33,417 nucleotides of DNA from Bacteroidota bacterium (GCA_027490225.1 JAIXYK010000030.1:1-33417); one strand, 5' to 3'; shown: positions 10,511 through 24,982, counted from the stretch's first letter. Numbers and translations are program-made. Notes: a model not told the origin generated them from the letters alone.

Positions 10511-11680
10511 TTATTTCCCTTCAGGAATTGGATACCTTTTAAACGGTGCATTTCTATCAAATAAATACCTGTAAGTAATGTATTTCTTAGCAGATTCTGC
10601 ACCAACCGATTCCCACAATTTGCGCATCGGAGGATTAAAATCGCCCACCCAAGAAAATTCAAGTTCTTTGTATTGTGGCATTTCTTCGAATACTTTTTCT
10701 AAATGGTAAATAAATGCCGATTCAATTCCTAAACCCTGGAAACGAGGCACAACGCCCATTAACACACTTCTTGCCCTTGTTATTTTTCTGGTTTTCACCA
10801 TGTAAAGCAATTTCAATTTATTTATTAAATTTAATTTCCCATTAAATGTTTTAAATATTTGATTAACGTCTGGATACATTAAATAAATAGCAACTGGTTC
10901 CCCCTCAAAATAAGCAATCCAAATAAATTTCTCTTCAAGCACCATTTTCGCTTTTTTAATAAAAGTGCGCACATAATCGGTTTCCATGGGTTCAAAATCC
11001 TCTTTAAAGTCTTTCCATGCCTCATTAAAAACCTTGGTAAAATCAACAGCATATTTATCCATTTCATTGAATTTAAAATGCTCAAAACTGTACCCCGGTT
11101 TTTTCGTTATCCATTCTGCAATTTTCTTAAAACGAGGTGGAATACCACGTTCTAAATAAAAATGAAAGCCTTCTTGGTTGTAATACACTTCAAATCCATA
11201 AGCCTCAAATAGATTCTTATAATAAGGTAAATTATAGGCTACATTGTACGATGGTTGTGTAAAACCATCCACCAAACAACCCCAGAATTTATCCGGTTCG
11301 CCAAAATTTATGGGGCCATTCATGGCTTCCATTTTATTTTCCTGCAGCCATTTTTTTGAAGTATCGAAAAGTAAATTTGCAGTAGGTTGGTCGTTTATAC
11401 AATCAAAAAAACCAACACCACCTGTTGGTTGACCAGATTCATTGGCCTTTTTAAAATCAATAAAAGCAGCAATTCTACCAATTAATTTCCCCTTTTCGTC
11501 CTTTACAATCCAGCGTTTTGCAATTCCATGTTTAAAATACGGATTCACATTCTCATCAAAAATCCCATTCAATTCCTCATCCATTGGACAAACCCAGGCA
11601 GCATCGTTTTTATAAATCTCCCGCGCCACATCCAAAAATACCCGCTTCGTTTGCTCATTATTAACTTCAATAATCTTCAT
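10511..11680 (-). CDS. YghO-like N-acetyltransferase family protein
   Basis: 389 residues. The N-terminal part (1-110) has a divergent GNAT-like pattern (FLDVAREIYKNDAAWVCP, GKLIGRIAAFID). The middle has NGPINFGEPDKFWGCLVDGF at 121-140, characteristic of the large YghO-like family common in Bacteroidota. The C-terminal GNAT domain holds the acetyl-CoA loop GVVPRFQGLGIES, with R-x-x-G-x-G at 313-318. Family members are often left as hypothetical proteins, and the substrate is unknown. The gene is solitary and convergent with the DJ-1/PfpI gene. It starts at the ATG at 11680, and a noncoding repeat region follows immediately upstream. Confidence 0.75.
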   Translation of the reverse strand: MKIIEVNNEQTKRVFLDVAREIYKNDAAWVCPMDEELNGIFDENVNPYFKHGIAKRWIVKDEKGKLIGRIAAFIDFKKANESGQPTGGVGFFDCINDQPTANLLFDTSKKWLQENKMEAMNGPINFGEPDKFWGCLVDGFTQPSYNVAYNLPYYKNLFEAYGFEVYYNQEGFHFYLERGIPPRFKKIAEWITKKPGYSFEHFKFNEMDKYAVDFTKVFNEAWKDFKEDFEPMETDYVRTFIKKAKMVLEEKFIWIAYFEGEPVAIYLMYPDVNQIFKTFNGKLNLINKLKLLYMVKTRKITRARSVLMGVVPRFQGLGIESAFIYHLEKVFEEMPQYKELEFSWVGDFNPPMRKLWESVGAESAKKYITYRYLFDRNAPFKRYPIPEGK

Positions 11681-12392: not shown

Positions 12393-12950
12393 ATGAAAGC
12401 AATTCTAATTCTATTTTTCGGGTTATCATCGAATATCATTTCAAAAAGTGATATGATATTCAATTTTGGAAGTGGGCAAAATCAGATTAATAATTGGGTT
12501 TTGATTTCTGACAATATCATGGGTGGTGTTTCAAAATCTAATCTAGAATACACAGACAACACAATGATTTTAAAAGGAGATATTTCTTTGAGAAACTTCG
12601 GCGGATTTGCTTCAGTAAAGACTCAATTTGGAAAACATGACATTTCTCAATTCAAAGGAATTAAGATAAAATTCAAATCCACAAATCAGAAGTTCGCATT
12701 CACCCTTGAGGACAGTAACAACTGGACATTACCAAACTACAAAGGATCATTCTATTCAACTAGTTCCAATACTTGGGAAGAGAAGACTATTTTTTTTAAG
12801 GACTTTAAACAATACCAAGTTGGAGAGGCTACTGGAAAAAAGTTAGAAGATTCAAAGCTGAAAAGCATAGTCAGAATGGGTATAATTACAACTGAGAAGA
12901 AGGAAGGTCCTTTCTCAATTGAGATTGATTATATTGAATTTGTGAAATAA
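12393..12950 (+). CDS. CIA30-family exported protein
   Basis: 185 residues. An N-terminal hydrophobic stretch (MKAILILFFGLSSNIISKSD) looks like a signal peptide. The rest matches the CIA30 (complex I intermediate-associated protein 30) beta-sandwich: WVLISDNIMGGVS near 32-44, FGGFASVKTQF near 70-80, FKGIKIKFKS, then a terminal GPFSIEIDYIEF strand. CIA30 helps assemble respiratory complex I in mitochondria. Bacterial members are often exported and their role is unknown, so no respiratory function is claimed. The gene is single, with an AT-rich leader of the Bacteroidota type and a convergent acyl-CoA synthetase downstream. Confidence 0.85.
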   Translation: MKAILILFFGLSSNIISKSDMIFNFGSGQNQINNWVLISDNIMGGVSKSNLEYTDNTMILKGDISLRNFGGFASVKTQFGKHDISQFKGIKIKFKSTNQKFAFTLEDSNNWTLPNYKGSFYSTSSNTWEEKTIFFKDFKQYQVGEATGKKLEDSKLKSIVRMGIITTEKKEGPFSIEIDYIEFVK

Positions 12951-13029: not shown

Positions 13030-14814
13030 CTAATTTAATTCACCACGAAAAATCTCTTCTACCAATTTATAATATTTTTCCATCAGTACTTTCCTTTTTA
13101 ATTTGAGCGTTGGTGAAAGCTCACCAGTAGCTACATTCCATTCATCGGGAACTAATTTAAATCGCTTTATTTTTTCGTCGCTTCCCAATGTTTTATTATA
13201 ATTTATGGCTATTTTATGGTATAGGTCGAGAACTGCTTTTTCTTTGATTAAATCGGCTTTATTTTCTGTTGCAATTTGTTGTGTTTTTGCCCAACTTTTT
13301 AGTGCCTCAAAATTGGGAGAAACCAAGGCACTAGCATACTTCTCGCCTTCGCCAATAACTAAAATTTGGTCTATATAAACAGATTCCTTGTAAATGTTTT
13401 CTATGGCCGCTGGTGCTACATATTTTCCATTTGATAATTTAAAAATCTCTTTTTTGCGGTCGGTAATTCTTAGAAATTTACCTTCTTCTAACACTCCAAT
13501 ATCACCGGTTTTAAAAAATCCATGCACATCGAATGCTTCTTCGGTAGCTTTTTCGTCTTTGTAATAACCCATCATTACGTTTGGTCCTTTACACAAAATT
13601 TCTCCACTTTCATCCAACTTTAATGTTACGTTTTCTATCACAGCACCAACAGTTCCAAGCTTAATCAAAGGTGCTTGATTTCTATTAATTGTAATGATTG
13701 GAGATGTTTCGGTAAGACCATACATATTGATTAACTTAATGCCTGCAGCCCAAAAAACACGCTCCATCTTGGGACTTAATGCCGCTCCACCTACTCCAAT
13801 ATGCAATACTTCATTTCCCATCACTTCGCGCCATTTGCTAAAAATTAACTTATTGGCCAATTTCAATTGTAACTCATAAAAGGCTCCATTTTTCCCGTTT
13901 AGTTGATATTTATAACCTAAATCTAATGCCCAAAAGAACAGCATTTTCTTAACGCCCGTTAAGGAATGTCCTTTGTCCATAATCTTATCGAATACTTTTT
14001 CCAAAATCCTTGGAACAGCGCCAAAACCATGAGGTTTTACAGCTTTTAAATCCGCCGCAACTGAGGCAATGCTCTCTGCATAATAAATACTAACTCCAGA
14101 ATATTGCAATTGATAATTTGCCATGCGTTCGCCAACATGGCAAATGGGTAAAATACTTAAATACCTATGTGCTGGTTTTAGTTGAAATACAGCTGCTGCT
14201 GCCAGTGCATTGCTTACCAAATTTTGATGTGATAATAAAACACCTTTAGAAGTTCCTGTGGTGCCTGAAGTATAAATAAGCGTGGCACAATCTGTAGGTT
14301 TTATTATAGCTTTTATTCCCTGTAATTCATCTTTATAAAAATTGGCATTTTCTTTTCCGAGTTCCACCAAGTTTTTCCAATTTCCAATTCCTTCAATTTC
14401 ATCAAAGCTGCATAAGCTTTTTACTGTTTGCAAGTTTGGTTCAATGGCCTTGGCTATTTTTGCAAGGTGCTTATCAGAAACCACCAACATTTTGGCTTCA
14501 GAATGATTTAATAAATGCGTGTAAGCTGGTCCATCAAGCGTTGCAAATAAAGGAACATGTATTATTCCTAATTGTGCCATGCCCAAATCCATGAAATTCC
14601 ATTCGGGGCGATTGTTGGAGATGGTGGCTATTTTATCTCCTTTTTTTAGCCCCAATTTCATGAATGCATAGCTAATGTTATTGGCAAAATCTATATATTC
14701 TTGTGCGCTATACTTTATCCATTCGCCTTTTTCTTTGCATACTAATGCATCTGTTTTATCGCTAAAATTGGTGGAATATCTTTCTAATAAATCGAATGTT
14801 CTGCTTATTTCCAT
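13030..14814 (-). CDS. Long-chain acyl-CoA synthetase (AMP-forming)
   Basis: 594 residues of the ANL adenylating superfamily, long-chain fatty acyl-CoA ligase branch. Motifs in order are the ATP-binding loop YTSGTTGTSKG at 181-191, then LINMYGLTETSP, then the hinge region with FKTGDIG and ITDRKKEIFKLSNGKYVAP, which is the long-chain form of the motif, and a C-terminal GELSPTLKLKRK. It would activate a free fatty acid to acyl-AMP and then acyl-CoA at the membrane or in the cytosol. The gene is on the same strand as the polyketide synthase but about 1 kb downstream, past repeats and a broken gene, so it is probably a separate unit. It could feed or process a PKS product; that is only inference. 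Confidence 0.93.
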   Translation of the reverse strand: MEISRTFDLLERYSTNFSDKTDALVCKEKGEWIKYSAQEYIDFANNISYAFMKLGLKKGDKIATISNNRPEWNFMDLGMAQLGIIHVPLFATLDGPAYTHLLNHSEAKMLVVSDKHLAKIAKAIEPNLQTVKSLCSFDEIEGIGNWKNLVELGKENANFYKDELQGIKAIIKPTDCATLIYTSGTTGTSKGVLLSHQNLVSNALAAAAVFQLKPAHRYLSILPICHVGERMANYQLQYSGVSIYYAESIASVAADLKAVKPHGFGAVPRILEKVFDKIMDKGHSLTGVKKMLFFWALDLGYKYQLNGKNGAFYELQLKLANKLIFSKWREVMGNEVLHIGVGGAALSPKMERVFWAAGIKLINMYGLTETSPIITINRNQAPLIKLGTVGAVIENVTLKLDESGEILCKGPNVMMGYYKDEKATEEAFDVHGFFKTGDIGVLEEGKFLRITDRKKEIFKLSNGKYVAPAAIENIYKESVYIDQILVIGEGEKYASALVSPNFEALKSWAKTQQIATENKADLIKEKAVLDLYHKIAINYNKTLGSDEKIKRFKLVPDEWNVATGELSPTLKLKRKVLMEKYYKLVEEIFRGELN

Positions 14815-15046
14815 TGTTGATTGAAGGCTATTTTTTTATCTCCTTGATGCTTGAATATTGCATCAAAGTGGTCAGCAATATACTTAAGAATTTGCTATTG
14901 ATGCTACTGAATGGGAGTTTAAGTGTTTTAAACGTTTATATATGTTTAAAAAACGGCTTTGCAAATAGTAAATGTTAGTTTTGATAAAGCAACAATAGCA
15001 AAATGCGGAACTTCAAATAACATTTTAACAAAACCCAAATAAGGCT

Positions 15047-15289
15047 ATGAATAAATTAGAATTGATTCCAGAAATAATAATAGCAAACAAAATATACCTG
15101 ATTAGGAAAAAAAAGGTAATGCTTTCTTTTGATTTAGCAGAGCTTTATGAAGTGGAAACTAAAAGATTGAATGAGCAAGTAAAAAGAAATATTGGAAAGT
15201 TTCCAGAAAGATTTATGTTTCAGTTAACCCAAGATGAATATGTGTTTTAAAGGTCGCAAAATGCGACCTTTAAAATGAAGGTGCCTTAA
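15047..15289 (+). pseudogene. Truncated ORF6N-domain gene
   Basis: The first 67 codons match the start of ORF6N proteins (phage-type KilA-N/ORF6N DNA-binding proteins): [20 protein letters not shown], then [22 protein letters not shown] at 15248-15250 stops the frame just where the family has its conserved L-R-S-Q-N-A-T stretch. Reading on in frame gives RSQNATFKMKVP and a second stop at 15287-15289. The C-terminal half of the family is missing, so the gene looks broken by a nonsense change and then truncated. It could be expressed as a 67-residue fragment, but a decayed mobile-element or phage relic is more likely. Confidence 0.75.
15245..15275. repeat. Perfect 14-bp inverted repeat
   Basis: TTTTAAAGGTCGCA (15245-15258), a 3-base AAA loop and its exact complement TGCGACCTTTAAAA (15262-15275). 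It spans the premature stop of the ORF6N fragment. No T-run follows, so it is not a classic terminator. Confidence 0.85.
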
Positions 15290-15321
15290 TCATTTAATGG
15301 GCAATCATGATATTAAATTGC

Positions 15322-15375
15322 CATGGGTTTTAACCCATGACTAAAGTTTTTTCGAATGATCAAGGGTTTTAACCC
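15322..15375. repeat. REP-like pair of GGGTTTTAACCC palindromes
   Basis: GGGTTTTAACCC occurs twice, at 15325-15336 and 15364-15375. The first is extended to an 8-bp stem, CATGGGTT/AACCCATG, with a two-base loop. Paired palindromes of this kind resemble repetitive extragenic elements of Bacteroidota. No transposase gene is adjacent. Confidence 0.65.
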
Positions 15376-15440
15376 AATAATTAAGGAGAAGGTATAATTT
15401 TACAATATTGTTGCATACGAATTTTAATTTTGTCTTTCTG

Positions 15441-15620
15441 CCTTCGGCACGACTTCCTTTTGTCTTGACACAAAAGGAAGCAAAAAGTCAAGAAGCTCCA
15501 AAGAGCTGTCCTTCGGACCACTCGGCACTTTCCGCCAGAGCCCGCAATGCCAGTGCTTCGGAAAAGCCTTCGTTCAGCTTGCTGGAGCTTCCAACATTTC
15601 GATAACGCTACGGGGCATTT
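15441..15620. repeat. Dispersed repeat with a CTTCCTTTTGT/ACAAAAGGAAG hairpin
   Basis: CTTCCTTTTGT (15453-15463), a 6-base CTTGAC loop and the exact complement ACAAAAGGAAG (15470-15480) are followed by AAAAAGTCAAG and a GC-rich tail with short CTTCGG blocks. I recognise the 'TTTTGTCTTGACACAAAAG' core as a recurrent intergenic repeat of Bacteroidota genomes; this is from memory, not a search. The ORF at 15408-15605 over it is an artefact of the repeat. Confidence 0.65.
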
Positions 15621-15760
15621 TAAGAAGTATGAAAATTATTTTACCCCCAGCGACCTCAAAATATCCACCATTCGAATTTACAAAACATGGAATTTTAATG
15701 TTGTCGAGCATGTTGAAAAGTGAAAAAGCCGATAAAGTTTAATGGAACTAAAATGCCACG

Positions 15761-15826
15761 CCCCTGATAGAAGCGGTAGCCCGCAGCCCCCCTTTTTTGG
15801 GGCGAGGACTACAAGCGAATAGCAGG
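15761..15826. ncRNA. Flavo-1-like structured element
   Basis: The plus strand has CTGATAGAAGCGG at its left, a central CCCC-TTTTTT-GGGG hairpin (15789-15802) and AAGCGAATAGCAGG at its right. The pairing ends (CCTG/CAGG) and the GATAG/AATAG plus AAGCG blocks resemble the Flavo-1 RNA motif / dispersed repeat of Bacteroidota. It overlaps the 3' end of the phosphopantetheinyl transferase gene, supplying its stop codon. Whether it is a transcribed RNA or a DNA repeat is unresolved. Confidence 0.5.
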
Positions 15827-16573
15827 AAAAGGCGCCAAAAAATCTGAAATAACTGCATTTTCCTGACTGTAAAACAAGGTACAAACGAATCCTTCGGCTG
15901 GAAAAACGTTTTTTATTTTCCAATCTACCTGCTCAAAAAATCCTTTGACTTCGAGCAATTTATAATTTCCATTTTCAACTTTAAACTCCAGACTATCTGG
16001 TGTTAAACGCATACCCTCGCCTATTGCTTTTAAATACCCTTCTTTAACGGTCCAAAACTTAAAGAAACGAGCAAGTTTTTCTTCCTCCATTTTGCGAATG
16101 TAGGCTGCTTCATTCTTTGAAAAATTCTTATCGATAAGTTCTTCAATGTCTGGTAATGGCCTAATATGCTCTAAATCAATACCTACTTCACCAGCTCGAG
16201 ATATGGCATAAACAACCCTGTTGCCTGAATTTGAAATGTTGAATGTGAGGGAATAATCATCCTGAGAAAATGGTTTTCCCTTGTTATGCCGGCCAATTTT
16301 TAAATCTATTGGAGGAATGCCTAAATAGGCTGAAAGCAACAATCTCAAGCCTCCTTGGCTAACAATAAAGTTATTTTGTGCATCTTGAAATTTATAGTAG
16401 TTAATTCTACTTTTTTCTAAATCTGTTAATGCTGAATGGCATTTTGCAATGAAGTCATCAGAATCTCTGCTACTTGCTGTCCATAAATGAATTTCACCTT
16501 TGGATAAAATAGGAAAGGGCCGTTTGGAACCATTTGCTCCAAACAACCCTTCGTTTCCTGATAATTCAGACAT
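15809..16573 (-). CDS. Sfp-type 4'-phosphopantetheinyl transferase
   Basis: 254 residues of the Sfp/AcpT family. Motifs are KGKPF (98-102) and FNISNSG (111-117), then GIDLEHI at 131-137 whose Asp133 and Glu135 bind Mg, and FWTVKEGYLKAIGEG with W174 and K177/E178, the W-x-x-K-E-x-x-x-K motif. The enzyme moves phosphopantetheine from CoA onto the Ser of a carrier protein. It begins six bases after the polyketide synthase stop and lies on the same strand, so it is almost certainly made with it to activate the PKS ACP (Ser2488). The last residues (roughly FPAIRL and the TAG stop) fall inside a repeat element. The N-terminus (about 25 residues before EIHLW) is longer than usual and a later start cannot be excluded. 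Confidence 0.95.
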   Translation of the reverse strand: MSELSGNEGLFGANGSKRPFPILSKGEIHLWTASSRDSDDFIAKCHSALTDLEKSRINYYKFQDAQNNFIVSQGGLRLLLSAYLGIPPIDLKIGRHNKGKPFSQDDYSLTFNISNSGNRVVYAISRAGEVGIDLEHIRPLPDIEELIDKNFSKNEAAYIRKMEEEKLARFFKFWTVKEGYLKAIGEGMRLTPDSLEFKVENGNYKLLEVKGFFEQVDWKIKNVFPAEGFVCTLFYSQENAVISDFLAPFPAIRL

Positions 16574-16579
16574 TGTCGG

Positions 16580-19500
16580 TTAAGCCATTACGCTGTCTGA
16601 CAATTCTGTAGTTAATATTTCAAGCAGTTCTTCTTTGTTATCTCTACAAAACAAGTGACCACCATTTACAGTTCTAAATTTAAACGTAGAATTGGTATGT
16701 TGTTTCCAACCTCTTAATTGCTCTTCTGTAAATACAACATCATCAGTTCCTGCAATAGCCGTAAGCGGACAATCTAAAGGAGCTGCATCTAAGTATTTGT
16801 AGCGCTTACCTAATAAAATATCTGCTCTCAAAGAAGGCAACATTTCATTAAATACCTCATTGTTTTCGATTACAGATTCAGGAATCTCTAATGATCTCAA
16901 GTGATTTTTAATGTTTGGAATATTTTTGTCCTTGTAAACTTCATCGTCGGCAATAGCTTCTAGGAATTTAAATGGACTCACCAAATGAGGAGCTCTCCAG
17001 CCACCAACTATAAACATGGTTGGATTCACGTCTTTCTCTTTTCTCAAATAACGCGTCAATTCTAAAGCTATACCAGCGCCAGAGCTGTGTGCATAAAATG
17101 CAATTGGCGTAGTTAATAATGGCTCGATAACTTCTGTCATTTTCTTTACCAATTCATTCACATCATCAAATGGTTTTTCATCTCCACGCTCTTCACGACC
17201 TGGTAATTGTACTGCACATACTTCAATGTCATCTGGCAAGAATTCGTGCCAAGAAGTGAAGATAGATGCACCACCCGCGAAATATGGTAAACAAAACAAC
17301 CTTAATCTTGGATGTTCAATTTTCTTACTGCGGATTATCCATTTATCCAATTCACTTTTCTCCACCAATACACCTTCTCCACCACTCGATTGTCCTGTTA
17401 ATTCATCGATAATCTGAACGCTCATTTCTTCCATTGTAGGACCACGCATGATGCGCATCATAGAATAATCGACCGTTACGTTACTTTGAATCCAGTTACG
17501 GATTTGGTTTGCCATTAAAGAATCTAAACCGTATTTGGTAACAGGTTCGGAAGTGCTTACTTTATCGGCAGTTGTACCCAATACTCTTGCGAATGTATCT
17601 TTTAATTGGGTTAACAAGATTTCAGTTTGTTCTCCGGGTTTTGCTTCTAACAAGGTAATTTTCAATGAACCATTTCCAGCGCCAGAAGATGTTCCTGAGC
17701 TCAACTCTTTTTCGCGAATCAAGTGAGAGAAACGACTAGATTTTGCAGAATGCGGGAAGAAACTTCCAATCATTTCCCAATCAGAATCTGTAGCCACACG
17801 CTGCACTGGATTGTTTAATAGCATTTGCTCCAACACAACCAATGCCTGTTGCAAGCTAAATGCTTTCCAGCCTTGTTTGTACAATAAGCCGCCAACGTTA
17901 CCGCTACGTGCCACAAAACCTACATCACCAATAACACCCCAATTGATGGTCATTGCTGTTAAGCCTTGAGCTCTTCTCCAAGAAGAGAAATTATCTAAGA
18001 AGCTATTTGCTCCCACATAACTCACCTGACCTGGATTTCCGTAAATTGCTGAAATAGAAGAATATGAAACGAAATGTTCTAAATCCATTTCTTTGGTAGC
18101 TTCATGTAAATGCCAGCAACCAACAGCTTTAGGAATAAAAACTTTCATGTATCGGTCGTAATCAATTTCAGGAATACTGCCGTCATCTAAAACCATGGCC
18201 GCATGCTGAATTCCTTTTAAAGGAGGCATTGTAGCTTTGATTTCTGCAAAAACACGCTCCACATCTTGTTTATTCGAAACGTCAGCCTTAGCAATCATTA
18301 CATTAGTTCCGTGAGCAATCATTTTCTCAACAATTGCTTTTTCATGCTCAGTTTTTGGTCCACTGCGGCTCATTAAAACTAAGTTCTTCGCACCTTTGGT
18401 GGTCATCCATTCTGCAACAGACAATCCGAAACCTGAAGCTCCACCAGTTAATAAGTAAGTAGCATCTGCTTTAAACTCGATTGCTGCTGGAGGTGCGATT
18501 TGAACTTCACCTTCCATTGCAACGATAATTTTACCAATGTGACGCGCGCCTGCCATGTATTGGAAAGCATCCGCCAATTTAGAAACAGGGAATACTTTTA
18601 CAGGATGTGGGGCAAATTTATTGGCCACAAAATAATCGATAGATTCTTGGAATAATCTTCCACCGAAGATGTCTTTTTGCTTAAATAAGCGGTCAACATC
18701 TACTCCAAAATAAGTAAGGTTATTTCCAAATGGCTCTAAGCCTAATTTGCTGTTGCGGTAAATATCTGTTTTACCAATTTCTACAAATCGGCCGTAAGCT
18801 GCAAGGCATTTTACGCTCTTGTAAATGGCTTCACCTGAAAGTGAATTCAACACTACGTCAACTCCTCTTCCACCTGTTTTTGCCATGATTTCATCAGAAA
18901 AATCTAAGTTACGAGAACTCATGATGTTTTCTGGTTTAACACCGATTGATTCGATATACGCGCGTTTGTCAGCGCTACTAACAGTTGCAAAAATCTCTGC
19001 TCCTATTGCTTTTGCGATGTGAATGGCTGCAATACCAACTCCACCAGCTGCTGCATGTATCAATACTGTTTCGCCTTTTTCTAAACGGCAATGGTGAATC
19101 AAAGAGAAATAAGCAGTAGTATAGACAACTGGTAAGCTGGCTGCTTCGTTCCAGTTGATTCCTGTTGGTTTCTTCACGCAATGAACTGCTAATGGATAAG
19201 CAAATCCGCCCAAGCAAGATGGCGCGGTTGCCATTACCTCATCGCCAATTTTTACATTGCTTACATTTTTACCAATGCGTGTTACAACACCAGCGCATTC
19301 TAAACCGAATGTTCTCCCGAATAATCCACCTTCAACGGCTGCATCAGATAACAAGCCCATTGCAATCATAATATCGCGGAAGTTTAAAGCTGATGCCTTA
19401 ATACTTACTTCCACCTCATTGTCTGCCGGGTCTTTTCTTTCTGTTTCACGCAACACAAGGTTGTCAAGAACACCATACTCTGAAATAGTTGCTGTATAAG

Positions 19501-22500
19501 CCGTTCCTTCTGCTGAAACTGTCTTTTTAGCTTGTTGTGAAATGGTGTCTTTGGAGATTCTTTCCAGCTTATTGAAGTATCTTTTTCTACCTCTGAATGC
19601 AATTTCATCTTCGCTATCGGTGCTGAAAAACTCTTCTACCAATGCATCAATTTCAACTTGTTCAACAGTTGCGCTGAAATCTACCATGCGCGATTTGAAC
19701 AATGGAAATTCGTTTACCACTACTCTACTCACTCCACGCAAACCTTCTTGAGCAAGGTTAATAATTTCAGGAGATCCACCAATTGATTGTGCACCACTAG
19801 ACAATAACCAAATGCTTGGTTTGTCTTTGTAGTTTGTAGTATTCAATTTGCGCATTACATTCATCAACATGATAGAAGATTGCTCTTCTGATGAAATAAT
19901 GGTAGCTTCTGAAAGTTGCTCATTCGAAACAGCATCTAATCCCCAAGCGAAAACAATTCCTTGAAGATTTCCATTGGCAGCTGCATGCTCAATAACTGCG
20001 TCTGCGCCTTCCTGGCCTAAAGTATCGATCTCAAATTCATGCTCAGAAACTTTATTGAATGCATTGCTCTTTTTTACAACAGTAATGGTTTTATTCAAAG
20101 ATTTTAACTGTTGAATAATTTTATCTGCAGTTCCATTTTCATCAGCAAATACTAACCAATCAGCCGCAGTTGTCTTAGCTACATTTTCTACTTTTACAGT
20201 ATTTAAATCTAACTTTTCCGCTCTTGCAAGAATTACACTTTGGCAAGAAACATCATTCTTTTCGAAATCGCTGTACATGGCAACATCAGAGAAACCGTTT
20301 GCTTGTAAAACAGTTTTCCAGGTTTCAGGAGCCATAGTAGCATGCAATGGACGAATGTCCATATCTTCAAACAACCACCAGCCTTCTGTCATCCCGAAAA
20401 TAAAATCGAGGTAAACCGGAGAATTGGTTACTTCCAACATCATTAAGATTCCTTCAGATGCTAGTAGCTTCTTAGCATTTCCCAGAGAAACAGAAAGATT
20501 TCTTGTAGCATGAATAACATCAGAAGCAATGATTAAATCGAAAGAATTCAAATCAATTCCTTGTGTTGCAGGATCTTTCTCAATATCCATGATGCGGTAT
20601 TGCACAAATGGATATCTCGCAAATCGTTGTTGTGCTTTTAACAAGAACATGTGCGATAAATCAGTATACACATATTCTGTTCTATCTGCTGGTAACATTG
20701 GCAAGATAGCTTGAGTCATACCTCCTGTTCCAGCTCCGATTTCTAACACGCGCAGAGTTTGGTCGGCTGGTAGATTAGCAATTAACTCGCTAATTGATTT
20801 TGCAGCTATGTCGTTGTATTTCTTAAATGCGAAACCTTCTACGTAATATTTCACAATTGCATCCCATTTATCTTCAGGGAAAATCAATTGGATTGGGTCT
20901 ATCGTTCCTTGTAAAACTCCTGCTATTTCAGGTCCACAACGCCCTAACAAAGTAGATTCGTGGTGAAATTGTGGATATTTTCCATGTAATTCATCCATCC
21001 AAGCACGTGTATCTCTGAAAGATGGAGTTTTGATGATAGTATACACACCGTTATCTCCACTTACAAAACCTGCATTTTTCAATAACAAGAACATGTGGTG
21101 AAACAAGCGATTGTGTTCCTTCACTACCTTAAAGTCTGCAGCAGCTTGTTCTACATTGATTACTTTACCAACTTCGAAATTTAAACCGAGTTCTTTTAAG
21201 GCATTTGCGATGTAGCCAATGGTTAATTTCCATTGTTCAGGCTCATATAAATCGTAATATTCTTTTTGTTCGTGACGTGCATTTACCTCATTGAGCGTTT
21301 TTGCTACTTCGGTTCTAATTGAATTTGGTGAAGGAAGATATTCGCCTGGATTGCGCAACAATTGTTGGTCGGTACGAGGTTTCATGTTCCATTTATATTC
21401 GTAGAACCATTTATCTTCATCACCTCCATTTTCACCTCGAGAACCCTTTAAGTATTGCGACTTAAATCCATGGAATTCAGCAACTAAACTTCCATCATCG
21501 TTAAAAATCCATAATTCACCTAAAGCGTATTCATCTGTCCATTCGCGTAAGCGGCCATGTACAATTAACTTGAATGAATTTGGTTTTGTATAGAATTTAA
21601 TTCTGTCGATATGTACAGGAATGTAAACTCCCATTTTCTTGTTTACATCTTCGCGTTCGTTGAAAATTCCGAACACCGTTTGGAAACAGCTGTCTAAAAC
21701 ACCTGGATGCAAATTGAACTGGAAAAACTCCGAACGAATGCTTTCGTGTACTTCAATCTCACTGATAGATTCCCACAATCCGTTACTTCTGTATAACTTT
21801 TTGATGGCACGGAATGATGGACCGAGGTATAAACCGCTTTCCAGCAATTCATCGTGCATGCTTTTCACAGGAACCGGAATGGTAACACGCTTGCGAATTT
21901 CTTCTAAGTTTACTGGAATCGGTGTAAATGCATCACCAATGTGGTTCATTTTTCCGTTTGAACACATTGTCCATTGTGCATCTTTACCTTTGGGCTTTGT
22001 GTAAATGAAATAGTTACCACCATCATGCGAAATATCCATTTGTATGTATGGAGGTTCTCCTGAATCAGGTAAGAATAATGCACGTTCGAAATTAAGGTCT
22101 TCTAAAAACCCGAATTTCTCTCCAAACGTCTGTAAACCGGCTGAAATAGATAAATCTACGTGACCAGCGCCAGGGAAAATAATTGGCCCTTGTACTTTAT
22201 GGTCTTCGATGTACGGATAAGTGCGTTTGTCTAAAGTGATATCCCAAAGAACATTGCTGCTTTCTCTTGCAGAAACAACTTTTTTGGTCAAATGTGGATG
22301 TTCGAAAATTCCTAAACGTTGTTGTTTTCCTTCTGCAGTTTCAATCCAATAAGATTCTTTTTGCCAAGGATATTTTGGAAGTTTTATGAATGCATTATCA
22401 TTACCATAAAACGATTTCCAGTCAATTTTAGCTCCCCAAGTATGCAATGCTGCAGCACTTGATAAGAAAATTGCTTTTTCGTTTTCTTTTCTTCTTAAAG

Positions 22501-24982
22501 AAGGAATCACCAATCCTTTTTTCTTTTTCTTTGAGAGCAAGTCGTTTACACCAATTGCATGAATTGGATGTGGTCCTAATTCAATAAATGTATCAAAACC
22601 ATCATTTATTTGCGCCTCTACAGCTGCTGTAAAATAAACAGGTTCGCGCACGTTTCTAAACCAATACATTGGATTTAAATCTTCCCCATTCACCTTATTT
22701 CCTTCAACTGTAGAATAGAAAGGAATTTTGGTAGCAACAGTTTTAAATTCTCCTAATGATGCCAATAATTCATCCTTTAGAGGCTCCATGTGATGGCTAT
22801 GGAAAGGCACATTCACTTCTAATAATCTGTGGAAAATATCTTTGGCGTTTAATTCAGCTGCAATTTCTTCAATTACATCTGTATCACCTGATAATGCTAC
22901 CATTGATGGACCATTTACAGCTCCAACAGAAACGCGGTCTTCTTTTCCTTCAATCAATTTTAATGCGGCCTCAAAAGGAACGCCTACAGCCATCATTCTT
23001 CCTTTATCGGTAGCTTTTTGTTGCACACGACTTCTATGAAAAATCAACAATACCGCTTGTTCTAAAGTTAAGGCACCCGAAACATAACCAGCTGCAACTT
23101 CACCAATACTATGTCCAACAACTGCGGATGGGTGAATGCCCATTGCTTTCCACATTTCGAACAAAGCAATTTGAATGGAGAATAAAGAAGGTTGCGCAAT
23201 ATTTGTTTCGCTGATGCGAGATGTTTCTTCTGTTTTAGTCAATTCTTCAATCAACGACCAATCTGCATGCACAGAAAGCATTTTATCTAATTTCTCGATG
23301 GTTGCACGGAAGATTGGTTCATTTTCGAACAATTGTCTTCCCATTCCCCACCATTGCGGACCTTGACCAGAAAAAATAAATACTATCTTTTCTTTAACAG
23401 TATTAGCACGTCCTTCTGATATCCCTGTAAGCGTTTCTCCATTTAAGTAAACTTGAAGACTATCTGCCAATTCCTCTTTGGAAGAAGCAACAATTGCCAA
23501 TCGAATATCGTGGTGAGAGCTGCGTAATGCAGTTGAAAAACAAATATCACTGAAACTTGCTTTGTTTTCTGGGTCTTTTAAGAATGCAATGTACTGTGCA
23601 GCTTTTGCTTTTAATGCTTCATGGCTGGTTGCTGATAAAGTACAAATTTGTAATCCTTTTTTATCGTTTGCTTTTGATGGAACAACTGCATCATAACCTT
23701 GCAATACTACGTGTGCATTAGAACCTCCAAATCCAAAGGAGTTTACGCCACCATATCTTGCCTTGCCGTTTGGTTTCCAAGAAACTTCGTCGGTTGGAAC
23801 TTTTAACTTTAAATCATCAAAAGGAATGTTTGGATTTCCTTTTAAAAAGTGAATGTTCGGAGCAATAACGCCATGTTTCAACGCTAAGGCTAATTTACTT
23901 ATACCAGCAACACCTGAAGCTGGTTCTAAGTGACCAATATTTGATTTTACAGAACCGATGTAACAGAAATCTTCTCTGTCTGTTCCAATTACTTTACCTA
24001 TAGAATTTGTTTCAATTGGGTCACCAACGAAAGTACCTGTTCCATGCGCTTCCACATAATTTACCATATGTGGGTCAATTCCTGCATCTTTATAAGCATC
24101 TACCAATAAATCTTGCTGAGCAATTGGATTAGGAACTGAAATTCCTTTTGTGGCGCCATCTTGATTTACGGCAGTACCAATGATTAATGCATAAATATTG
24201 TCACCATCTTTTTCAGCTTGCGCCAAAGTTTTGATGATGATTAATCCAGCGCCTTCGCTACGAACATAACCATTTCCTCTTTCATCAAATGAATAACAAA
24301 TACCATCAGGCGAAAGGAAACCACCTTTACTGAAACCCATTTGAGGTTCCGGTTTAAGGATTGAATTTACACCACCTGCGAAAGCTAAATCTGCATCACC
24401 TTCCCAAATGGCGCGACAGGCAGAATGCACTGCATTTAATGAAGAAGAACAAGCTGTATCGATTGCGAAACTTGGTCCTTTTAAGTTGTAAGAATAAGAA
24501 ACACGGTTTGCGGCGATACAAAGTGCCGAACCAACATTGGTATGCGCTCCGATGTTAACGCGTTCTATTGGAGTATTTTGAATATCTCCATAATCGTGCG
24601 CTGAGATACCTAAGAAAACAGCTGCTTTTGAATTATCAAGATCGTCTAGACGTAAACCTGCATCTTGGATTGCTTCGTAAGAAACTTCCAAAACCATGCG
24701 CTGCTGAGGGTCCATTCTCATAGCTTCCAACGGAGAAATACCAAAGAATCCAGCATCAAACTTGTCAACTTCTTTAATGAAACCGCCACGTTTAACACTT
24801 ATTTTGGACGCTCTTCTGAACTCAGGAGCAAACATTGCTTCTACATTCCAACGATCGGCGGGAATTTCACCCAAAGCATCTTTTTTTCCACTTAATAAAT
24901 CCCAAAATTCTTCAGGAGAATTTACGTCTCCGGGAAATCTGCATCCGATCCCAATGATTGCTAAAGGTTCTCTTTTCTTCAT
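16580..24982 (-). CDS. Single-module highly reducing polyketide synthase
   Basis: 2800 residues in one frame. Domains: KS 5-428 (Cys178 in DTACSSS, His313, His351). AT about 534-830 (GHSIGE, Ser625; VPFHSH at 725-730); Ile after the Ser and Phe in the second motif suggest malonyl-CoA. DH about 890-1180 (H928xxxG932xxxxP937, Asp1097 in LDSCFQ). C-methyltransferase about 1370-1590 (LEIGAGTGG from 1413). Structural KR-like region about 1600-1830. ER about 1838-2158 (HAAAGGVG at 1976-1983). KR about 2172-2350 (TGGASGFG; Ser2309, Tyr2322, Asn2326; LDD at 2265-2267, the B-type signature). ACP about 2452-2530 (GLDSLM, Ser2488). TE about 2556-2795 (AHSSG, Ser2633; His2776). It should build an acyl chain from malonyl units, methylate it at some steps, reduce it fully or partly, and release it. 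Iterative use is inferred from the single module. The next gene is its phosphopantetheinyl transferase. Confidence 0.96.
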   Translation of the reverse strand: MKKREPLAIIGIGCRFPGDVNSPEEFWDLLSGKKDALGEIPADRWNVEAMFAPEFRRASKISVKRGGFIKEVDKFDAGFFGISPLEAMRMDPQQRMVLEVSYEAIQDAGLRLDDLDNSKAAVFLGISAHDYGDIQNTPIERVNIGAHTNVGSALCIAANRVSYSYNLKGPSFAIDTACSSSLNAVHSACRAIWEGDADLAFAGGVNSILKPEPQMGFSKGGFLSPDGICYSFDERGNGYVRSEGAGLIIIKTLAQAEKDGDNIYALIIGTAVNQDGATKGISVPNPIAQQDLLVDAYKDAGIDPHMVNYVEAHGTGTFVGDPIETNSIGKVIGTDREDFCYIGSVKSNIGHLEPASGVAGISKLALALKHGVIAPNIHFLKGNPNIPFDDLKLKVPTDEVSWKPNGKARYGGVNSFGFGGSNAHVVLQGYDAVVPSKANDKKGLQICTLSATSHEALKAKAAQYIAFLKDPENKASFSDICFSTALRSSHHDIRLAIVASSKEELADSLQVYLNGETLTGISEGRANTVKEKIVFIFSGQGPQWWGMGRQLFENEPIFRATIEKLDKMLSVHADWSLIEELTKTEETSRISETNIAQPSLFSIQIALFEMWKAMGIHPSAVVGHSIGEVAAGYVSGALTLEQAVLLIFHRSRVQQKATDKGRMMAVGVPFEAALKLIEGKEDRVSVGAVNGPSMVALSGDTDVIEEIAAELNAKDIFHRLLEVNVPFHSHHMEPLKDELLASLGEFKTVATKIPFYSTVEGNKVNGEDLNPMYWFRNVREPVYFTAAVEAQINDGFDTFIELGPHPIHAIGVNDLLSKKKKKGLVIPSLRRKENEKAIFLSSAAALHTWGAKIDWKSFYGNDNAFIKLPKYPWQKESYWIETAEGKQQRLGIFEHPHLTKKVVSARESSNVLWDITLDKRTYPYIEDHKVQGPIIFPGAGHVDLSISAGLQTFGEKFGFLEDLNFERALFLPDSGEPPYIQMDISHDGGNYFIYTKPKGKDAQWTMCSNGKMNHIGDAFTPIPVNLEEIRKRVTIPVPVKSMHDELLESGLYLGPSFRAIKKLYRSNGLWESISEIEVHESIRSEFFQFNLHPGVLDSCFQTVFGIFNEREDVNKKMGVYIPVHIDRIKFYTKPNSFKLIVHGRLREWTDEYALGELWIFNDDGSLVAEFHGFKSQYLKGSRGENGGDEDKWFYEYKWNMKPRTDQQLLRNPGEYLPSPNSIRTEVAKTLNEVNARHEQKEYYDLYEPEQWKLTIGYIANALKELGLNFEVGKVINVEQAAADFKVVKEHNRLFHHMFLLLKNAGFVSGDNGVYTIIKTPSFRDTRAWMDELHGKYPQFHHESTLLGRCGPEIAGVLQGTIDPIQLIFPEDKWDAIVKYYVEGFAFKKYNDIAAKSISELIANLPADQTLRVLEIGAGTGGMTQAILPMLPADRTEYVYTDLSHMFLLKAQQRFARYPFVQYRIMDIEKDPATQGIDLNSFDLIIASDVIHATRNLSVSLGNAKKLLASEGILMMLEVTNSPVYLDFIFGMTEGWWLFEDMDIRPLHATMAPETWKTVLQANGFSDVAMYSDFEKNDVSCQSVILARAEKLDLNTVKVENVAKTTAADWLVFADENGTADKIIQQLKSLNKTITVVKKSNAFNKVSEHEFEIDTLGQEGADAVIEHAAANGNLQGIVFAWGLDAVSNEQLSEATIISSEEQSSIMLMNVMRKLNTTNYKDKPSIWLLSSGAQSIGGSPEIINLAQEGLRGVSRVVVNEFPLFKSRMVDFSATVEQVEIDALVEEFFSTDSEDEIAFRGRKRYFNKLERISKDTISQQAKKTVSAEGTAYTATISEYGVLDNLVLRETERKDPADNEVEVSIKASALNFRDIMIAMGLLSDAAVEGGLFGRTFGLECAGVVTRIGKNVSNVKIGDEVMATAPSCLGGFAYPLAVHCVKKPTGINWNEAASLPVVYTTAYFSLIHHCRLEKGETVLIHAAAGGVGIAAIHIAKAIGAEIFATVSSADKRAYIESIGVKPENIMSSRNLDFSDEIMAKTGGRGVDVVLNSLSGEAIYKSVKCLAAYGRFVEIGKTDIYRNSKLGLEPFGNNLTYFGVDVDRLFKQKDIFGGRLFQESIDYFVANKFAPHPVKVFPVSKLADAFQYMAGARHIGKIIVAMEGEVQIAPPAAIEFKADATYLLTGGASGFGLSVAEWMTTKGAKNLVLMSRSGPKTEHEKAIVEKMIAHGTNVMIAKADVSNKQDVERVFAEIKATMPPLKGIQHAAMVLDDGSIPEIDYDRYMKVFIPKAVGCWHLHEATKEMDLEHFVSYSSISAIYGNPGQVSYVGANSFLDNFSSWRRAQGLTAMTINWGVIGDVGFVARSGNVGGLLYKQGWKAFSLQQALVVLEQMLLNNPVQRVATDSDWEMIGSFFPHSAKSSRFSHLIREKELSSGTSSGAGNGSLKITLLEAKPGEQTEILLTQLKDTFARVLGTTADKVSTSEPVTKYGLDSLMANQIRNWIQSNVTVDYSMMRIMRGPTMEEMSVQIIDELTGQSSGGEGVLVEKSELDKWIIRSKKIEHPRLRLFCLPYFAGGASIFTSWHEFLPDDIEVCAVQLPGREERGDEKPFDDVNELVKKMTEVIEPLLTTPIAFYAHSSGAGIALELTRYLRKEKDVNPTMFIVGGWRAPHLVSPFKFLEAIADDEVYKDKNIPNIKNHLRSLEIPESVIENNEVFNEMLPSLRADILLGKRYKYLDAAPLDCPLTAIAGTDDVVFTEEQLRGWKQHTNSTFKFRTVNGGHLFCRDNKEELLEILTTELSDSVMA

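Follow-up and report, generated by a model that had tools for sequence, protein, structure and literature searches.

A patchily distributed polyketide synthase of Bacteroidota with linked acyl-activating and acyl-transferring partners: a putative route to methyl-branched membrane lipids

In a 33,417 nucleotide stretch of DNA from Bacteroidota bacterium (GCA_027490225.1 JAIXYK010000030.1:1-33417), hereafter referred to as the window, a gene for a very large polyketide synthase (PKS) is followed by a gene for an Sfp-type phosphopantetheinyl transferase (PPTase). Its domain content and the genes that accompany it in this and in related genomes make it reasonably probable that this protein is an iterative, monomodular and fully reducing PKS whose product, a methyl-branched acid, is activated by a linked ligase and transferred to a membrane lipid. 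The PKS was found in a limited number of Bacteroidota belonging to several orders, and its distribution indicates that it has moved between them horizontally, at least in part.

The order of domains and the catalytic residues of the PKS, which the initial annotation had read from the DNA, were recovered by Pfam searches, by alignment with the mycobacterial synthase MAS and by comparison with orthologues (Table 1), and the assembly of domains and motifs in the PKS-PPTase pair is far beyond chance. One full KS-AT-DH-ER-KR-ACP set is present in this single protein and, as had been noted, the window locus contains no second PKS module; none was found in the flanks of the orthologues either. The catalytic motifs of all complete orthologues are identical to those of the window PKS or conservatively changed. 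This applies to DTACSSSL, EAHGTGT, KSNIGHLE, GHSIGE, the H and D motifs of the DH, the GxGxG of the S-adenosylmethionine (SAM) motif, the His/Glu dyad of the cMT, the S-Y-N residues of the KR, GLDSL of the ACP, and the Ser and His of the TE (one catalytic position in the TE of L042 is X, a low-quality base). Within the cMT, which is nearest to that of CurJ (5thy; 240 bits), the helical part (PF18558) covers residues 1225-1313 and the SAM domain residues 1413-1567, and both residues of the invariant dyad are kept. The FHS-type motif of the AT suggests a malonyl-type substrate. Although a structural KR is expected at residues ~1600-1830, no Pfam KR match was obtained there; its presence is suggested by the gap before the ER and by the alignment of the PKS, from residue 1692 on, with the psiKR-ER-KR part of MAS. 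For the TE, the closest matches are RedJ and RifR, type II TEs that function as hydrolases.

The PKS is under purifying selection, with a dN/dS value between two of its orthologues (L049 and L050) of 0.034 for the whole protein, 0.016-0.055 for its domains and 0.020 for the cMT. In view of the intact reading frames and the strong purifying selection in relatives, an artefact or a pseudogene was rejected. A contaminant contig was rejected as well, because a Por secretion tail gene shares the contig, and so was the replacement of FAS II (the type II fatty acid synthase) by the PKS, since FabF is present in the host. A search of the window against Rfam gave no match.

Table 1. Positions in the window of the PKS gene, its domains and the genes considered as its partners.
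Feature	Position	Strand	Characteristics
PKS gene	16580..24982	-	ATG start, 2800 aa, KS-AT-DH-cMT-psiKR-ER-KR-ACP-TE
KS + C-terminal extension, residues 5-481	23540..24970	-	Pfam PF00109/PF02801/PF16197; KS tree
AT, residues 534-851	22430..23383	-	PF00698; GHSIGE + VPFHS conserved
DH, residues 895-1179	21446..22300	-	PF21089/PF14765; H and D motifs
cMT, residues 1225-1567	20282..21310	-	PF18558/PF08242; SAM motif, His/Glu dyad
Putative structural (pseudo) KR, ~residues 1600-1830, approximate limits	19493..20185	-	Partial alignment to MAS psiKR-ER-KR
ER, residues 1833-2155	18518..19486	-	TIGR02824, PF08240/PF00107
KR, residues 2174-2351	17930..18463	-	PF08659; LDD motif, S-Y-N
ACP, residues 2459-2529	17396..17608	-	PF23297/PF00550; GLDSL
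TE, residues 2561-2792	16607..17302	-	PF00975; PDB matches 3qmw/3fla
Sfp-type PPTase	15809..16573	-	254 aa, PF01648 3.4e-16
Long-chain acyl-CoA-synthetase-type ligase, conserved partner	13030..14814	-	594 aa, PF00501/PF23562; FadD11-like (NCBIfam)
GNAT-like acyltransferase, possible partner	10511..11680	-	389 aa; 62% to L046 gene; two loci only

The stop codon of the PKS (TAA, 16580-16582) and the ATG of the PPTase are separated by 6 bases, the spacing initially described for this activating enzyme. In the Bacteroidota surveyed for this pair, a PPTase orthologue is linked to the PKS in 10 of 12 informative loci and unlinked in two; it is present in all seven PKS genomes that were checked, the unlinked cases included, and was not found in either of the two PKS-less relatives checked. 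The initial annotation had reported no tailoring enzyme and had considered that the two genes may form a complete pathway. The first statement is incorrect because the gene of a conserved acyl ligase is located 1 kb downstream, and the second is not upheld, as this ligase recurs in seven loci and lipid acyltransferases recur too. The ligase adjoins the PKS-PPTase pair in seven of the 12 informative loci (the window, L042, L046, L047, L052, L053, and L070); the window ligase is 60-62% identical to the PKS-adjacent ligases of L042, L046, L047, L052, and L053, and between loci the identity is 60-85%. Elsewhere the gap between ligase and PPTase is usually 10-200 bp, whereas in the window (14815-15808) it is ~1 kb long. 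This interval is non-coding and contains palindromic repeats, for instance at 15245-15275 and as GGGTTTTAACCC units around 15322-15385.

In two genomes (G585 and G660) the PKS stands alone, and a separate cluster (L113 and L114) is comprised of a PPTase (55-57% identical to that of the window), an LpxL-like acyltransferase (PF03279) and a ligase that is 69-70% identical to the ligase of L047. The same LpxL-like gene sits between the PPTase and the ligase in L042 (18121-18618; G423:C117), where it is split by a stop and is therefore either undergoing decay or misassembled. A PlsC-like acyltransferase of 260 aa, which has an HX4D motif, is encoded beside the PKS in L042, L047, L052, and L070; its gene was found in four of seven PKS genomes vs. 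none of 10 PKS-less genomes, congeners included. Lastly, the GNAT-like gene is located directly 3' of the ligase in L046 and beyond the ligase in the window, where a gene for a CIA30-family (complex I intermediate-associated) protein lies between the two on the opposite strand (12393-12950). Distant homologues of the GNAT-like protein adjoin lipid genes, including an alpha-oxoamine-synthase-type pyridoxal phosphate (PLP) enzyme in Aureispira (28% identity) and a sterol desaturase in Roseomonas (26%). A profile search of this protein against solved structures gave no credible match, and no usable model of its fold was obtained (pLDDT 42). Genes for export, regulation or resistance were not found to recur in the flanks of the PKS.

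Twelve further loci encoding proteins 65-80% identical to the window PKS were identified, in metagenome-assembled genomes (MAGs) of Bacteroidota from several orders. A scan of named genomes revealed seven loci at 67-78% identity, all of them in MAGs, with Flavobacteriales NORP27, Salinivirgaceae GH45, and Bacteroidales GMC8 among the carriers. Sampling of 394 other Bacteroidia genomes revealed six more carriers, two of which coincide with L042 and L047; one additional carrier was found in the order of G705. The 13 distinct loci, including the window, show 65-97% mutual PKS identity, and ~2% of the sampled Bacteroidia carry the gene. Carriage is patchy: none of the nine other genomes of the window's order have it, and it is present in two of 36 genomes of one genus and in 2/42 and 2/7 genomes of two orders. 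In addition, two more distant PKS-PPTase pairs are present in Persicobacter and Aureibacter (Persicobacteraceae), of which P. psychrovividus and A. tunicatorum are cultured. The initial statement that no counterpart is known in Bacteroidota thus fails with respect to genes, although no paper on this family, on a cMT-plus-TE synthase with a linked PPTase, or on its ligase and acyltransferase partners was found in the open-access literature. Bacteroidota outside the window's class (G287 and G385) were also observed to contain ~3440-aa proteins with two KS domains ~2570 residues apart (L061 and L062), which constitute a PKS group different from the window family.

The PKS copies of two congeners (G705 and G768) are not sisters; one of them pairs with the copy from a Salinivirgaceae MAG and the other with that of BWSM_53. 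A tree constrained to join the two copies, and with it strict vertical inheritance of the PKS, was rejected by the approximately unbiased (AU) test (p-AU 4e-5). Further, when the window is compared with other groups, the identity of the PKS (74-80%) equals or exceeds that of FabF (68-75%), whereas within the genus of G705 and G768 it is lower (78 vs. 83.5% for FabF). The non-sister congener copies and these identities therefore indicate that the PKS has moved horizontally, at least partly.

Based upon these observations, the following pathway is proposed. The linked PPTase would place phosphopantetheine on the ACP, the AT would supply malonyl units for chain extension by the KS, the cMT would methylate the alpha position in some or all rounds, and the KR, DH, and ER would reduce the growing chain. 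The C-terminal TE would then hydrolyse the chain to a free methyl-branched fatty acid, a mode of release consistent with its similarity to hydrolytic type II TEs. Activation of this acid, probably to its acyl-CoA, would be carried out by the adjacent ligase, and a PlsC-like or LpxL-like acyltransferase would join the chain to a membrane or outer-membrane lipid; in the window genome the attaching enzyme is perhaps the GNAT-like protein. That the product is a reduced and methyl-branched acid, as initially proposed, remains likely for an iterative-type monomodular reducing synthase with a cMT and a dedicated PPTase. We infer from the genes the iterative mode, the length of the chain and its pattern of methylation, its release as a free acid and its lipid destination or acceptor. 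The pathway as a whole appears to be favored by the retention of the ligase with the PPTase and the LpxL-like gene where the PKS is alone and by the PlsC-like gene, which tracks the PKS.

Several observations weigh against this proposal. Use of the cMT or of the reducing domains may be optional, which the sequence cannot show. Three loci (L043-L045) have no ligase nearby, the ligase of the window is ~1 kb away from the pair across non-coding DNA, and the LpxL-like gene of L042 (G423) is broken. The final acyltransferase of the window genome is uncertain because a PlsC-like gene is absent from it and its LpxL match is only 35%. Moreover, the carriers of near orthologues are mostly MAGs.

The same set of proteins could also work by primer extension, where the PKS runs one or a few rounds on an acyl primer from FAS II to give 2-methyl or 2,4-dimethyl long-chain acids in the manner of MAS or Pks2. 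MAS is the best full-length solved match, the host owns FabF, and the ligase and acyltransferase partners recall the FadD/acyltransferase logic of mycobacteria; however, the upstream regions show no recurring loading domain or enzyme dedicated to starter activation, and a malonyl-type AT motif in combination with a cMT is unlike MAS. We consider this mode of action rather doubtful, while granting it somewhat more weight than the other alternatives. It is unlikely that the product is a free, diffusible and partly reduced polyketide, serving as a signal, antibiotic or similar compound, with the ligase and acyltransferases as chance lipid-gene neighbors. Although a patchy and horizontally mobile distribution is typical for secondary metabolism, fungal highly reducing PKSs (HR-PKSs) of the same domain order apply their reducing domains selectively, and the ligase is missing near the PKS in L043-L045, the ligase, PPTase and LpxL-like gene remain clustered apart from the PKS, only PKS genomes were found to have the PlsC-like gene, and the flanks show no recurring genes for export, regulation or resistance. 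Quite improbable is a third possibility, in which the chain forms the N-acyl part of a sphingolipid and the GNAT-like protein is a ceramide-synthase-like N-acyltransferase using the acyl-CoA from the ligase (a presumed resemblance to bacterial ceramide synthase), since, despite the position of this gene next to the PKS-PPTase-ligase genes in L046 and just past the ligase in the window and the lipid-gene neighbors of its homologues, it occurs in only two loci, the homologue linked to sphingolipids shares little identity with it, and neither a fold model nor a solved-structure match was obtained.

The proposed membrane-lipid pathway is of interest because branched acyl chains in Bacteroidota are thought to come from FAS II with iso/anteiso starters. 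If the proposal is correct, this route, with a single-protein PKS and dedicated partners for acyl activation and transfer, would give the phylum a second and mobile source of branched lipids, and it could leave distinctive lipid biomarkers. The results point to a bacterial lipid pathway that has so far escaped study and has passed between scattered, mostly uncultured lineages of Bacteroidota. It is conceivable, though tentative, that PKS-TE chains, the linked ligase and interchangeable PlsC-, LpxL- or ceramide-synthase-like acyltransferases form a mobile lipid-remodelling module for the membranes of uncultured Bacteroidota, parallel to the branched acids of FAS II. A compact, self-releasing synthase with a cMT would also be an option for branched fatty acid production in E. 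coli.

The position of the KS was examined in a tree of 62 rows with few modular references, and the KSs of LovB and animal fatty acid synthase (FAS) were compared by bit score instead. In this tree, the window family and the Persicobacter and Aureibacter proteins formed a clade (support 99/97), which then joined the synthases of two Deinococcus plasmids (99/95). CurL, the Streptomyces modular KSs, MAS, the trans-AT KSs and a PUFA-like group lay outside this grouping. The KS was not nested among modular KSs, its deeper placement was weakly supported, and so was its nearness to SgaA-type synthases (80/68). By this analysis the KS is bacterial and part of a clade of monomodular enzymes outside the modular assembly-line KSs sampled. 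The bit scores against solved KSs (CurL 441, LovB 336, animal FAS 294-307, the latter among the lowest listed; PikA and Pks13 also scored above LovB) gave no sign of a fungal or animal affiliation. The PKS reached none of the NCBIfam equivalog cut-offs, its best solved-structure matches were MAS and CurL, and a close match to a characterised synthase was not found. The two Deinococcus plasmids (L029 and L030) carry a PPTase and a monomodular PKS whose cMT region is degenerate; genes for thioester reductase, aminotransferase and GNAT proteins come next, and the pathway probably leads to an acyl amine.

Monomodular PKSs for lipids are already known in bacteria, and MAS, SgaA, and SupA/SwfA are of the same kind as the PKS described here. 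The Persicobacter and Aureibacter pairs, the sister clade in the KS tree, likewise have a PKS with a C-terminal TE beside a PPTase, but these proteins are ~2410 aa long, 43-44% identical to the window PKS and without a cMT, and no ligase homologue was found beside them in the stretches read. The PKS, TE, and PPTase therefore appear to be a more widely shared core. MAS and Pks2 are monomodular, iterative, reducing PKSs that produce methyl-branched lipid acids, and in mycobacteria they follow a comparable logic with FadD and acyltransferase partners. However, MAS takes methylmalonyl-CoA and lacks a cMT and a TE, whereas the window PKS has a cMT and the FHS-type AT motif; the KS of MAS branches elsewhere, and the score with NF041183 (Pks2) is 1215 bits vs. 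a cut-off of 2400. The KS-AT-DH-cMT-psiKR-(ER)-KR-ACP order of fungal HR-PKSs such as LovB, to which the initial annotation had drawn attention, is indeed present; it is uninformative, as fully reducing cis-AT modules and animal FAS with its TE have the same order and the KS is nearer to CurL. Further, fungal HR-PKSs usually have no TE, in contrast to the window PKS. Animal FAS (KS-MAT-DH-psiME-psiKR-ER-KR-ACP-TE) is iterative and shares the domain order including the psiKR and C-terminal TE, but its methyltransferase is dead, whereas that of the window PKS looks functional, keeping the SAM motif and the His/Glu dyad, and the window TE is of the RedJ/RifR type.

SgaA of Pseudomonas fluorescens MYb115 is likewise a monomodular PKS of the iterative type, with a lipid as the final destination of its chain; its partner in PfSgaAB is an alpha-oxoamine synthase and the product is a sphinganine (PMC12134224). 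In the plasmid relatives that were examined, similarity to the window PKS stops at the ACP and a PLP enzyme is encoded next to the synthase, whereas no PLP enzyme was found in the window or among the profiled flanking proteins of its orthologues. Plasmid clusters of the SgaA type from Paraburkholderia and Caballeronia (L075 and L087) contain, in addition to the PKS and PLP enzyme, a UDP-3-O-acyl N-acetylglycosamine deacetylase together with a protein of the LTA synthase family. On a Sulfitobacter dubius plasmid (L092, 7953-18787), a type I PKS precedes an MMPL transporter and a sorting protein for outer-membrane lipoproteins, an arrangement which suggests that a lipid made by the PKS is exported. 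Lastly, SupA and SwfA are monomodular PKS/FAS proteins of uncultured sponge symbionts (PMC3908369, PMC4245539, PMC9864124), and production of branched fatty acids has been proposed for SupA (PMC4245539, PMC9864124). SwfA has the domains KS-AT-DH-ER-KR-ACP, with a reductase-sulphotransferase and a radical SAM protein as partners and no TE or linked PPTase reported (PMC3908369, PMC4245539, PMC9864124). In the KSs of the sponge symbionts DPQQR is changed to DPQI/VR and HGTGT to HATGT (PMC3908369), whereas the window KS keeps both DPQQR and HGTGT and its PKS is accompanied by partner genes other than those of the swf operon.

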